Shown: one piece after another, positions 5,752 through 23,174 of the stretch
How positions within the stretch are numbered: position 1 is the first letter of the stretch
Layout of the letters: every line of letters begins with the position of its first letter
DNA from: Corallococcus sp. AS-1-6
GTDB taxonomy: Bacteria; Myxococcota; Myxococcia; Myxococcales; Myxococcaceae
Reading direction: 5' to 3'
Length of the DNA: 64,000 bases
Assembly (NCBI RefSeq): GCF_020037015.1
Contig: NZ_JAIQDE010000003.1
Coordinates: forward strand, 124,001 to 188,000
Notes under the pieces: generated by a model
The model's database searches: none
Seen by the model: only the letters and a program-made list of their open reading frames with translations
What the model was told of the DNA's origin: nothing
Position numbers and translations under genes: made by a program

Positions 5752-5764
5752 TCCTCGAGCCACC

Positions 5765-5794
5765 GCGCGCGCCGGTGTCCTTTCCGGCGCGCGC
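5765..5794. terminator. Bidirectional stem-loop between convergent genes
   Basis: A perfect 11-bp stem (GCGCGCGCCGG with CCGGCGCGCGC) and an 8-nt loop sit in the 59-bp gap between the deacetylase and GH16 stop codons. There is no clear T-run, so it may act as a weak or factor-assisted terminator for both genes. Confidence 0.6.
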
Positions 5795-5810
5795 GTGAAG
5801 ACAGCCGGGC

Positions 5811-7166
5811 CTACAGCTTGATCAACTCCACGTCATCCATGTGGATGAAGTTGGAGCCGTTGTGGGCCGGTGACTTGCTGTGCAGCCCGAACTCCAGGTA
5901 GCCGTTGGTGACGCTGATGGCGGGCGTCTCCAGCAGCGTGTAGTTGCCGTAGGTGCCCAGGTTGGTGATGGCCGGAGCGCAGTCCCCGCAGTTCTTCACC
6001 TGGAAGCGCGCGAAGTCGAACGTGCCTCCCTTGCGGAACCAGGCGCGCAGCTTGTAGTTGCCCGCCGCCAGGCCCGACTTCGTCTGGTACGTCCACGCCT
6101 CGTAGGCCGCCGCGGACGTCCAGTGCGTCAGGTGGTAGCTGCCCGAGTGCCCGCCGTTGTACGTCTCCGAGAACGCCGCCGCGCCCGTGCCGTTCGGGCT
6201 CCAGGTGGTCCAGCCCGTCATGCCCTGCTCGAAGCCCGGGTTGGTGAGCCCCAGCGACTGCGAGCCCCCCGGCTGGTACCAGCGCACCCACTCCACCTCC
6301 ATCGTCTTCTTCGCGCCCCAGGCCAGGTCGATGGAGGCCGGCGCCGGGTTCCCGTACCAGACGCCGCCCAGCGCCAGGTTCAGGATGAGGTAGTGGTTCT
6401 GCTGGAACTCCGACTCGTTGTGGTTGAACGTGGCCGTGGACACGAAGTCCTTGTCCAGGCGGAACACGATGGTGTTCGCCGTCCACTCCACCTCGTACGT
6501 GTGGAAGTCCTGCGACAGGTCCACGCCGCGGCTCGCGCCCGTGCCCCAGTCCGCGTTGCCGTTGTTGTACCAGTGCAGCGCGGACTTCATCCACGTGGGC
6601 TCCGTGGACTTCCACTCCAGGATGTCGATCTCTCCCGCCGCCGGCCAGCCCGCGCTCTGGACGTTCGAGCCCAGCGTCCAGAACGCCGGCCACATGCCGT
6701 AGCCCGGCGGGACCTTGATACTCGCGACGATCTTCCCGTAGCGCCCCTCCACCTTGCCCTTGGTGTGGATGCGGCCGGAATAAAACGACCGGTACTGCCC
6801 CGGGCAGCGCGAGTCCGTGGGGTTGTCCGCCGTGCGCTCCGCCGAGATGATCAGCTTGCCGTTGGCCACCGCCACGTTCTGCGCGCGCGGGAACTCCAGC
6901 TCACCCGTGCCGAAGTTGCAGTTGTTGGTCACCGGATCCCAGTTGCTCGTCAGCACGTTCCACGCGCCCGTGTTCAGCGCTGTGCCCGTGAAGTCGTCCT
7001 GCCACGCCAGCGACCACCCCGAGCCCGGGTCGTACGCGCGCTCGCCCTGCTGCGTCTGCCCGTAACCTTCCGCCTCCACCGGGGCGGCCTCCGGCTCGGG
7101 AGAACAGCCGGAGAGGGTGGTCAGGAGTCCTGCGGCGACAAGGCCTGCTCGAAAGGGGCGGTGCAT
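5811..7166 (-). CDS. Glycoside hydrolase family 16 lipoprotein (beta-1,3-glucanase type)
   Basis: A 451-residue lipoprotein with signal peptide and lipobox LSGC. The catalytic GH16 domain spans about residues 45-310. It holds the retaining-mechanism motif EIDILE near residue 176 (nucleophile Glu, helper Asp, acid/base Glu) and the flanking WPAFWTLG and HYLILNLALGG segments typical of laminarinases and endo-beta-1,3-glucanases. A C-terminal domain of about 140 residues resembles a galactose-binding-like carbohydrate-binding module. The start ATG at 7166 and its GGAG ribosome-binding site lie in the 3' arm of a perfect inverted repeat (7164-7196), suggesting translational control. The likely substrate is fungal or bacterial beta-glucan; the exact linkage is not visible. 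Confidence 0.9.
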   Translation of the reverse strand: MHRPFRAGLVAAGLLTTLSGCSPEPEAAPVEAEGYGQTQQGERAYDPGSGWSLAWQDDFTGTALNTGAWNVLTSNWDPVTNNCNFGTGELEFPRAQNVAVANGKLIISAERTADNPTDSRCPGQYRSFYSGRIHTKGKVEGRYGKIVASIKVPPGYGMWPAFWTLGSNVQSAGWPAAGEIDILEWKSTEPTWMKSALHWYNNGNADWGTGASRGVDLSQDFHTYEVEWTANTIVFRLDKDFVSTATFNHNESEFQQNHYLILNLALGGVWYGNPAPASIDLAWGAKKTMEVEWVRWYQPGGSQSLGLTNPGFEQGMTGWTTWSPNGTGAAAFSETYNGGHSGSYHLTHWTSAAAYEAWTYQTKSGLAAGNYKLRAWFRKGGTFDFARFQVKNCGDCAPAITNLGTYGNYTLLETPAISVTNGYLEFGLHSKSPAHNGSNFIHMDDVELIKL

Positions 7167-7196
7167 GAATGCTCCGGGGTAGGGGGAGCATTCATG
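7164..7196 (-). promoter_or_regulatory. Perfect inverted repeat covering the GH16 ribosome-binding site and start codon
   Basis: On the minus strand the leader reads CATGAATGCTCC, nine bases, then GGAGCATTCATG: a perfect 12-bp inverted repeat. The 3' arm contains the GGAG Shine-Dalgarno and the AUG used by the GH16 gene, so the hairpin would hide both. It could equally be a DNA operator. Confidence 0.65.
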
Positions 7197-7239
7197 TTTG
7201 CCGGTTTTGACGCGTATTGCCAGGAGGTCTGGAAGAACC

Positions 7240-8232
7240 TCAGCCGAGCCATTGGGGATTCTGGACGGTTCCGTCGAAGTGGTGGCTCGTCTTGTACTTC
7301 TCGTAGGCGCCGTCCTGGGCCGCGTCCTTCGTCCTGGCGAGCAGGGCCTGGACCTCCTTTTCGTTCAGGGGCTTGAAGGTGCGCGCGGCGGTCAGCGCCT
7401 GCTGCAGGCGCTCCTGCGAGTCGATGCCGGTGATGACGACGCTGACGGGCAGGGACAGGTTGTAGCGGAGACACTCGGGCGCGGTGACGGTCTTGCTGTC
7501 CAGGATGAACGGGTCGCCCATGGACTTCATGGCGAGCACGCCAATGCCTTCCTTCACGAGCACGGGCAGCACGCGCTTCTCGAAGCTGTTGAAGTGGGCG
7601 TCCATGACGTTGAGGGGCATCTGCACGGTGTCGAAGCGGAAGCCGTGCTTCTTCGCCGTCTCCAGCATCTTCAGGTGGATGTCCGGCGACTTGTGGCCGG
7701 TGAAGCCCAGGAAGCGCGCCTTGCCGGCCTTCTGCGCGTCCTTCATCGCCTCGATGGCGCCGCCTTCGGCGAAGGCCCGGTCGGGGTCGTTGTCGCGGAT
7801 GACTTCGTGGAGCTGGAGCAGGTCCAGGTGGTCCGTCTGGAGCCGCTGGAGGGACTCGTCGATCTGCTTCACGGCGGTCTTCTTGTCGCGGCCGTCGATC
7901 TTCGTCATCAGGAAGGCCTTGGCGCGGTAGCCGTCGCGCAGCGCCTTGCCCATGCGCTCCTCGCTCTTGCCGTCGTTGTAGTCCCAGCAGTTGTCCAGGA
8001 AGTTGATGCCCTGGTCCAACGCGCCGCGGATGAGCGCGAGGCTCTCCGACTCCTCCTTCTGCTTGCCGATGTGGAAGCCCCCGAGCCCGATGCACGACAC
8101 CTCCTGGCCGGTGCGGCCCAGCTTGCGGCGGGGGACGGCGGGCGCATTCTTCGCCTTCTTGGGCGAAGCCCCGAGCACGGGCGGGGCAACCATCAGCGAC
8201 AGCGTCGCGGCGAGGAATTCCTTCCGGGTCAT
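7240..8232 (-). CDS. Aldo/keto reductase, exported or membrane-attached form
   Basis: A 330-residue NAD(P)H-dependent oxidoreductase of the aldo/keto reductase superfamily. An N-terminal hydrophobic leader (TRKEFLAATLSLMVAPPVLG) suggests export. The barrel starts at RRKLGRTGQEVSCIGLGG. The catalytic tetrad is visible as Asp and Tyr in LDNCWDYNDG, Lys in LMTKIDG and His in LLQLHEV. I chose ATG 8232 because it opens into this leader, while the longer frame to 8361 adds an unlike N-terminus. Substrate unknown. It lies 73 bp before the GH16 gene on the same strand and is divergent from the iron-transporter operon. Confidence 0.88.
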   Translation of the reverse strand: MTRKEFLAATLSLMVAPPVLGASPKKAKNAPAVPRRKLGRTGQEVSCIGLGGFHIGKQKEESESLALIRGALDQGINFLDNCWDYNDGKSEERMGKALRDGYRAKAFLMTKIDGRDKKTAVKQIDESLQRLQTDHLDLLQLHEVIRDNDPDRAFAEGGAIEAMKDAQKAGKARFLGFTGHKSPDIHLKMLETAKKHGFRFDTVQMPLNVMDAHFNSFEKRVLPVLVKEGIGVLAMKSMGDPFILDSKTVTAPECLRYNLSLPVSVVITGIDSQERLQQALTAARTFKPLNEKEVQALLARTKDAAQDGAYEKYKTSHHFDGTVQNPQWLG

Positions 8233-8387
8233 GCGCGGGCGTCCTTCCCGAGAGCAGGTATCGTCTGGGAGGCCGACGTTGGGACCGGGCGACGCCCGGG
8301 ACAACGGGCGCGCGGGCCGAGTGTGCAGGAGCCACCGCTGCGGACCAGGTGTGCAGGGCACGCGGGTGCCGCATAATCGACACCCGC

Positions 8388-9434: not shown

Positions 9435-10327
9435 GCGAGGAGCGCGAGACCTGCCGCGCTGACGCGGTGTGGCAGCCAACGCTGATTCGGGCCCAGAGTC
9501 CCCGGACCTTCAGGGAGACGCCCTCCGGACCGGCACGAGCAAAACCTGTCCGACAGTCGGACAGGTTTTCGCTGCTCGGCTGGAACGGGAGCGTCGCCGT
9601 CCAGGAGAACGACAACCGGAGGCCATCAGCACGCGGCGCCACCGGTGGTCGTCCAGCCCTGTCGGACAGTCGGACAAGTTCATGGGGTGCTCGGTCCCCA
9701 GTCCCGGCGGAAGATGAGGCCGGTCCCGCAGGAAGCGGCATCGGGAGACCGTCTGCCCAGGGGGCCCGTCGCAGCGCTCCAAACCTGTCGGACAGTCGGA
9801 CCGGTTCGAGCGGCGAACCCAACGTGTCCGACAGCCGGACCATTTCGCGCAGTGGCCCTGGAGTGGCCGACCGTCGGGCCGGTTCGAGCGGTGATTCAAA
9901 CCTGTCGGACAGTCGGGCAAGTACAGGCGGTGGGCCCAAGCTGTCGGACAGTCGGACCGGTTCGCGCAGTGGCCCTGGCTTGGCCGACCGTCGGACCGGT
10001 TCGAGCGGTGATTCAAACCTGTCGGTCAGTCGGACATGTGCCGACGGTGGGCCCAAGTTGTCGGACGGTCGGACCGGTTGGGGCGGAGGTTCAAACCTGT
10101 CGGACAGTCGGACAGGTTTTTGCGGTGGCCCCAGGTTGTTGGACGGTCGGACCGGTTCACGTGGTCGGTGCGACTTGTCCGACTGTCGGACAGGTTTTGG
10201 GCGTGCCCCGCCGCCGGGGCGCCTCGGAGGGCTTCTCCGTTTCTTAGCCGGTGGTGGGGACCGCTCGGCCGTGGGCGTGGCGCACCAGGGGGGCATTCGT
10301 TCGACCCTTGATGGAGCTGCGCGATGA
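9431..10327 (+). CDS. Doubtful ORF through a 39-bp repeat array: Ser/Arg/Gly repeat protein or non-coding insert
   Basis: A 298-codon frame joined by ATGA overlaps both to the binding-protein stop (9431-9434) and to the permease start (10324-10327), just as a coupled operon gene would be. From about codon 119 it encodes eleven consecutive 13-residue repeats of the type NLSDSRTGSSGEP, because the DNA period of 39 bp is a multiple of three. Against a real protein: other forward frames are also open through the array, third positions are less G/C-biased than in neighbouring genes (10 of 13 in one unit I counted), and no signal, fold or family is visible. It may be a genuine translationally coupled low-complexity protein, or an insertion that happens to stay open. 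Confidence 0.3.
   Translation: MSEERETCRADAVWQPTLIRAQSPRTFRETPSGPARAKPVRQSDRFSLLGWNGSVAVQENDNRRPSARGATGGRPALSDSRTSSWGARSPVPAEDEAGPAGSGIGRPSAQGARRSAPNLSDSRTGSSGEPNVSDSRTISRSGPGVADRRAGSSGDSNLSDSRASTGGGPKLSDSRTGSRSGPGLADRRTGSSGDSNLSVSRTCADGGPKLSDGRTGWGGGSNLSDSRTGFCGGPRLLDGRTGSRGRCDLSDCRTGFGRAPPPGRLGGLLRFLAGGGDRSAVGVAHQGGIRSTLDGAAR
9541..10196. repeat. Array of 13 quasi-palindromic units, eleven of them in exact 39-bp tandem
   Basis: Core units of about 22 bp with consensus CTGTCGGACAGTCGGACCGG start at 9546, 9659, then 9785, 9824, 9863, 9902, 9941, 9980, 10019, 10058, 10097, 10136 and 10175. The last eleven are exactly 39 bp apart. Unit 1 is a perfect palindrome with 14-bp arms around a central A (9541-9569); unit 13 keeps 8-bp perfect arms around a T; internal units are imperfect dyads. 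Units 4-6 resemble units 7-9, a 117-bp higher-order repeat. The array lies between the binding-protein and permease genes of an ABC importer. In RNA it could fold into serial hairpins. Confidence 0.92.
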
Positions 10328-23136: not shown

Positions 23137-23174
23137 TGTGTTTCACCCGCGCGTCGTGCAACGGGTGAAACACA
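23137..23174 (-). promoter_or_regulatory. Perfect 13-bp inverted repeat upstream of the DUF642-like gene
   Basis: TGTGTTTCACCCG (23137-23149) and CGGGTGAAACACA (23162-23174) are exact inverted repeats with a 12-bp spacer, 21 bp before the start codon at 23115. An unusually A+T-rich stretch (about 23170-23215) lies just upstream and probably holds the promoter. The repeat may be an operator or an mRNA leader hairpin. Confidence 0.6.

Follow-up and report, generated by a model that had tools for sequence, protein, structure and literature searches.

In Corallococcus sp. AS-1-6, an inverted repeat encloses both the Shine-Dalgarno sequence (SD) and the start codon of a gene for a GH16 glucanase, and by computation a stem over SD and AUG is present in long RNA from all 16 members of the genus (weakest in the genome labelled L014). 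We propose that this hairpin silences read-through from the reductase gene upstream while mRNA made from the gene's own promoter is spared, an arrangement like that of phage T4 gene e. To this reading we assign a probability of a little over one in three (~0.37). The wider claim is rather doubtful, namely that throughout the genus the design of T4 gene e recurs on the chromosome of a predatory bacterium, at a gene whose enzyme cuts glucans, with a promoter within the 5' arm and enzyme obtained from that promoter only. The leader is probably to be filed as a hairpin that hides a ribosome-binding site, a member of an already known kind of control.

The repeat was examined within a stretch of 64,000 nucleotides (the window) of a genome assembled as 9.5 Mb in 82 contigs. 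The initial annotation had described perfect 12-bp arms and a 9-nt loop at 7164–7196, with GGAG and the start codon (7166) of a GH16 gene inside the 3' arm. A check of the sequence returned exactly these arms, loop and coordinates. Reading of the minus strand, from which the gene is transcribed, bore out the position of both initiation signals within the 3' arm (SD GGAG at 7175–7172, ATG at 7166–7164, 5 nt between them), and the assignment of the gene to GH16 is upheld by its match to PF00722 (6.4e-21). Across the repeat the RNA runs CATGAATGCTCC, CCCTACCCC, GGAGCATTCATG. The features used below, with negative positions counted back from the GH16 ATG, are as follows:

5811–7166, minus strand: GH16 glucanase (laminarinase-like) gene, start codon 7166–7164; best PDB match ULam111 (5wut_A, 3.5e-36)
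7164–7175, as read on the plus strand: CATGAATGCTCC
7185–7196, as read on the plus strand: GGAGCATTCATG
7185–7196, minus strand: 5' arm, CATGAATGCTCC in RNA, −30 to −19; no variation among 16 genomes in columns −29 to −27 and −24 to −19
7176–7184, minus strand: C-rich loop of 9 nt (8 nt in 4 of 16 species)
7164–7175, minus strand: 3' arm, GGAGCATTCATG, with SD and start codon; GGAGC the same in all 16 genomes, −4 to −2 variable
7182–7226, minus strand: conserved leader block, −60 to −16, including the 5' arm, from alignment; also present in L014 despite a different upstream gene
7218–7223, minus strand: candidate −35, CTGGCA, −57 to −52, invariant in 16 of 16 genomes
7194–7199, minus strand: candidate −10, AAACAT (AANYAT in the genus), −33 to −28, overlapping the outer end of the 5' arm
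7186–7189, minus strand: putative transcription start region, −23 to −20, inside the 5' arm, placed by spacing from the candidate −10 only
7240–8232, minus strand: aldo/keto reductase gene, upstream, the assumed source of read-through; PF00248, 8.5e-36

No ATG, GTG or TTG lies earlier in the GH16 frame, in which 7166 is the first start, and the start position is identical in 16 of 16 members of the genus; the N-terminus, with its LSGC, reads as a lipoprotein signal. The reductase gene (scanned as an open reading frame at 7240–8361, the ATG at 8232 being the start that we chose) is co-directional with GH16 and stops 73 bp ahead of its ATG, and a scan of 7100–7320 found no terminator-like site for this upstream gene. 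Judged by the presence of the reductase end upstream, the gene order permits read-through in 15 of 16 genus genomes. A scan for a co-directional upstream frame returned 14 of 16, its filter having missed L017 and L014 being divergent; in L014, which lacks the reductase gene, the GH16 gene and that for the solute-binding protein lie side by side in divergent orientation. Past the reductase gene of the window lies a gene for a transporter solute-binding protein that points away, and a polysaccharide deacetylase gene downstream of GH16 is convergent with it.

Other repeats were seen in the window. Between the convergent deacetylase and GH16 genes, at 5764–5795, there is a GC-rich 12-bp inverted repeat with a loop of 8, possibly a bidirectional terminator lacking a T run, and similar repeats are visible at the equivalent place in many genus members. 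Between a solute-binding protein gene and a permease gene lies an imperfect tandem array (9778–10196) of about 10 copies of a 39-bp unit, for which readings of 78 and 117 bp are also possible. The array is rich in CTGTCGGACAGTCGGAC-like palindromes, to which a 13-bp inverted repeat at 9541–9569 is related. A perfect 13-bp inverted repeat with a 12-nt loop (TGTGTTTCACCCG / CGGGTGAAACACA) lies at 23137–23174.

The window contains four perfect inverted repeats with arms of at least 12 bp and loops of 3–20 nt, where six simulations under a first-order Markov model gave an expectation of 0.83. Repeats of this length are thus only slightly unusual in themselves, and arm length alone is weak evidence. 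Gene calling on 464 kb (the window plus 400 kb from contig C11) gave 189 genes, and none of the others has a perfect stem over its SD as long as the 12 bp of GH16, the runner-up having 8; this set is limited to genes with an SD-like site and was called by simple in-house criteria (GC by codon position and an SD beside the start), and some of its starts are surely wrong. When the leaders of the 188 other genes were shuffled (150 times each, loops of up to 20), a stem of at least 12 bp arose in 1 of 28,200 sequences and one of at least 11 bp in 5, which puts the per-gene chance of such a stem, from that single event, at ~4e-5. By simple arithmetic, with ~8000 genes assumed, about 0.3 such stems are expected by chance per genome. 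Accidental complementarity is unlikely at one given gene, not so across a genome, and conservation is therefore the stronger argument.

A protein search recovered orthologs in all 16 genus genomes covered, and every one of their leaders (L002–L017) was examined; a 101-base query spanning the hairpin found 14 of them at the DNA level, L014 and L015 being reached through the protein. Absence of the 5' arm from close relatives had been named in advance as an argument against function. All 16 genus members in fact retain this arm, and with it a stem that covers SD and AUG. The GCTCC/GGAGC pairs are identical in all leaders, and with a sixth pair that is U-A in 13 genomes and U-G in 3, six inner pairs form throughout. 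The next two pairs outward, on the −3 or −2 side, are broken in 4 and 5 genomes (7 of 16 in all), while the outer YATG/CATG pairs form in every genome, the outermost as U-G in 7. The spacer shortens from 9 to 8 nt in L011–L014, and the majority sequence of the genus is the complete 12-bp palindrome.

Conservation of paired changes had been suggested as a check. In an alignment from −30 to +45, which includes the entire hairpin (a second alignment covers the leader), one double change among 16 sequences, in L015, restores a pair. Paired cells made up 95.3% of 192, against 94.6% after shuffling, a level reached by 37 of 500 shuffles, and the covariation score for the 16 genus sequences was not significant, being reached in 191 of 500 shuffles; covariation neither proves nor refutes the stem. 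Folding of −45 to +3 gave z-scores between −2.8 and −6.6 in all 16 genus members; among the 188 control genes 13 fell below −2, the lowest at −4.6. The computed cost of opening SD and AUG (−45 to +6) was 9.3–20.2 kcal/mol across the 16 genomes, a value reached by at most 2.1% of controls for 12 of them and by 11–31% for L004, L005, L012 and L014.

Upstream of the loop, the 5' arm forms part of a longer conserved block. This block opens at −60 with TTCCTGGCAA, invariant in 16 genomes except for its first base, becomes more variable from −50 to −43, and then continues as AAAAC-GG-AA through the 5' arm to −16. Conservation crosses the edge of the arm without a break, and the 5' arm is more strictly kept than the 3' arm outside SD and ATG. 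Because the block stays in L014, where the reductase gene is missing, we assign it to the GH16 gene, whose promoter it probably holds. CTGGCA-18-AANYAT is the only consistently placed promoter-like pair in the block and the top or tied-top pair in 16 of 16 genomes, always at the same place and with 7–8 of 12 matches. A −10 of the form AANNNT is known from M. xanthus vegA. By score the candidate promoter is weak: a stricter scan, at a 9-of-12 cut-off, passed no site, and the score of the pair was no better than that of shuffles (reached in 157, 134, 42 and 29 of 500 for L002, L009, L012 and L015, respectively), so that its fixed place and the invariant −35 alone would speak for a promoter.

Further readings of the leader were tried and rejected. 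A sigma-54 promoter has a GC 10 nt after its GG; CTGGCA fits, but by eye the expected GC is missing. An AUG is found inside the 5' arm of 16 of 16 Corallococcus leaders, at an offset of 29 or 28, and opens frames of 10, 24 or at least 29 codons; these frames and lengths differ between species, which does not fit a conserved leader peptide. In fourU RNA thermometers UUUU stands opposite the SD. Here CUCC stands opposite GGAG, and nothing in 7050–7350 matched Rfam at threshold, which does not fit an RNA thermometer of the fourU or ROSE type; for a riboswitch or other Rfam leader, the same interval gave a single sub-threshold hit of 9.6 bits of 55. Nor was there a regulon: the palindrome (up to 3 mismatches) and the upstream block CCTGGCAA-N6-TNAAAACNGG (up to 2 mismatches) each occur once in the genome. 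A looser pattern, GCTCC-gap-GGAGC-gap-ATG, has 93 genome matches, compared with 30 for a reversed control pattern.

The computed cost of opening SD and AUG was then set against the position at which the RNA begins. Averaged over the 16 genomes, it was 16.1 kcal/mol when the RNA began at −110, 15.5 at −31, 12.2 at −28, 8.6 at −25, 7.9 at −23 and 5.3 at −21 to −19; a start at −23 would still leave a 5-bp hairpin. Because the cost falls once the start lies inside the 5' arm, the repeat would separate two kinds of mRNA, a shut one from read-through and an open one from the gene's own promoter. Cutting the leaders of 188 control genes from −45 to −21 lowered the cost by 1.6 on average and by 10.2 at most. 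With the same cut, 12 of the 16 GH16 leaders fell by more than every control, while the fall in L004, L005 and L012 was reached by 3 of 188 controls and that in L014 by 24 of 188. For read-through RNA the cost ranged over species from 11.2 to 19.2, a spread of 8 kcal/mol. The lowest value of the 16 belongs to L014, which lacks the reductase gene (n = 1), and its relative L012, already with both outer mismatches, stands at 13.9.

From these features we infer a promoter, a transcript start, read-through and an effect on translation that would work together as follows. Transcripts entering from upstream, chiefly by read-through from the reductase gene, would carry both arms, and in such RNA the hairpin would hide the GH16 SD and AUG. 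The gene's own promoter (−35 CTGGCA, −10 AANYAT) would overlap the 5' arm, and mRNA made from it would start inside the arm, be unable to form the full stem and be translated; glucanase would then be made only when this promoter fires. The same nucleotides would have two functions, one in DNA as promoter and one in RNA as the antisense of the ribosome site, and in this model the stricter conservation of the 5' arm would arise because the arm serves both promoter and pairing. If true, a leak-proof design familiar from phage and from insertion elements would be seen in an ordinary bacterial chromosome, and the complementarity of promoter and ribosome site would be explained. The model also suggests how other such leaders might be found: the downstream edge of the promoter would be complementary to the SD, and the gene upstream would run in the same direction.

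Several results count against silencing of read-through by the hairpin: the weak promoter, the 7 of 16 genomes with broken outer pairs, the insignificant covariation, the opening costs of four genomes, which 11–31% of controls reach, and the ordinary leaders of the M. xanthus clade (below). The initial annotation had expected the stem to block initiation. The structural side of that expectation stands, with a stem over SD and AUG in all 16 genomes. The presence of the hairpin in every transcript has become less sure, because the conserved block starts at −60 and promoter-like hexamers put the start inside the 5' arm, from where little of the computed block is left; the promoter pair, however, scores no better than shuffled leaders.

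Related designs are known. In the transposase genes of IS10 and IS50, fold-back control operates: read-through RNA with both arms buries the start, and the genes' own transcripts start within an arm. Read-through RNA at the GH16 gene would likewise hold both arms, and its own transcripts would start within one; unlike in IS10/IS50, no mobile element was seen at the repeat and the arms are not element ends. For T4 gene e, the available part of the published account describes long early transcripts that form an inhibitory structure, cutting lysozyme synthesis 100-fold, and late promoters just upstream of the ribosome site whose transcripts are without the 5' portion of this structure (PMC3014915). 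By computation, the GH16 leader resembles T4 gene e in having the SD and/or AUG in a helix of the longer transcripts, and if its candidate promoter is right it would also share a promoter encoded around the 5' strand. It differs in belonging to a chromosomal glucanase gene of a predatory bacterium, with an ordinary neighbour as the assumed source of long RNA and no phage late promoter. In the accessible portion of a study of the mgtC-mgtB intergenic region, start regions are said to be often sequestered and stem-loops to control downstream translation; a short ORF is involved at mgtB, whereas the AUG in the GH16 5' arm has no conserved frame (PMC8092293). Corallococcus sp. EGB, the source of the beta-1,3-glucanase LamC and of the same genus as the gene studied here, is said to hold four GH16 beta-1,3-glucanase genes in its genome, and the part of that report available to us describes no leader control (PMC8466578). 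Among the titles and abstract openings surveyed in the literature, from which subscription papers were mostly absent, none named a leader of the proposed kind.

Other explanations would account for parts of these data. That the hairpin is a plain brake, as in the initial annotation, is somewhat unlikely; the gene's own mRNA would then start upstream of 7197, always contain the stem and be translated at a low level until a protein, a small RNA, temperature or coupled translation opened it. The stem itself (12 bp, first of 189) and its conservation in 16 of 16 genus members agree with a brake of this kind, as do the AUG in the 5' arm of every Corallococcus leader and the failure of the promoter pair that places the start inside the arm to outscore shuffles. 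Yet the aligned stretch, from −65 on, contains no conserved −35 upstream of −60; the frames of the 5' arm AUG differ between species, and there is therefore no conserved leader peptide; the cost for read-through RNA varies by 8 kcal/mol between species; and no Rfam family reaches threshold. It is unlikely that the complementarity has no role, the 5' arm being promoter and initiation sequence and the 3' arm ribosome site and ATG, each conserved separately. Conservation that passes straight across the arm boundary is consistent with such a coincidence, and so are the breaks at −3 or −2, which affect 7 of 16 genomes, one further genome carrying a compensated change; against it stand the chance of ~4e-5 for the stem at a given gene, an invariant C at −5 and G at −23 that a GGAG site does not need, and a genus majority sequence that is the full 12-bp palindrome.

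A DNA operator, bound by a dimeric repressor across the promoter and start region, had been offered by the initial annotation as the alternative to an RNA hairpin, and we consider it very unlikely. The arm centres are 21 bp apart, equal to two helical turns, and the location over the candidate transcript start would suit repression, but a second copy is absent from the 9.5 Mb at up to 3 mismatches of 22. The spacer, which is 8 rather than 9 nt in four of the species, departs from a fixed half-site spacing, pairs of the palindrome are broken in 7 of the 16, and in 9 of 16 genomes the 3' half-site is unlike that of the window, with changes that are one-sided. The five neighbouring proteins that were scanned (GH16, reductase, deacetylase and two transporter parts) include no member of a regulator family. 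The unique site, the shifting spacer and this regulator-free set of neighbours all disfavour an operator. The pyrC gene of enteric bacteria is controlled by start-site switching, and at the GH16 gene a start that moved slightly within the 5' arm would similarly tune a 5'-terminal GCUCC/GGAGC hairpin. The six pairs formed in all 16 genomes are those that a −24 start would include, and the mean opening cost drops from 7.9 at −23 to 5.3 at −21; the energy step is small, however, and there is no link to nucleotide metabolism, and we regard such switching as highly improbable.

The survey of leaders also reached outside Corallococcus; its 50 leaders came from 20 strong orthologs of the protein search and from the 30 loci listed by a further search, which matched 68 of 96 genomes. 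Their start codons were chosen by eye, and clades were labelled from leaders and proteins shared with named records ('fulvus-like' is a label only). In the nine loci of the M. xanthus clade (L152–L160) the corresponding position, ~35 nt ahead of the GH16 ATG, is occupied by another hairpin, consisting of CCAGGGG..CCCCTGG with ATGTC/GACAT outside, in which the G and C runs lengthen together between species. Its opening cost of 5.4–10.3 (control mean 7.8) and z-scores of −0.82 to 0.51 are ordinary for its composition, and cutting these leaders to −21 lowers the cost by 0.6–7.9, a fall reached by 7 to 108 of 188 controls. A hairpin conserved beyond the genus was rejected on these opening costs and shuffles; the feature looks limited to one genus, and we claim its conservation within Corallococcus only.

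Two of six Pyxidicoccus-like leaders fold strongly (L162, z −3.95; L166, z −3.23) and four do not; the two strong hairpins are placed just before or over the SD. Among 11 fulvus-like and 8 other leaders, z fell below −2 in 1 of 19 (L169). In L018, L020 and L021, from other genera, a GC-rich hairpin followed by a T-rich stretch was seen by eye shortly before the GH16 start; it may be an attenuator or else terminate the preceding gene. The record L056, labelled Comamonas sp. KCTC 72670, has a GH16 gene whose sequence and leader resemble those in Myxococcus genomes (compare L159, by eye) and is probably mislabelled.
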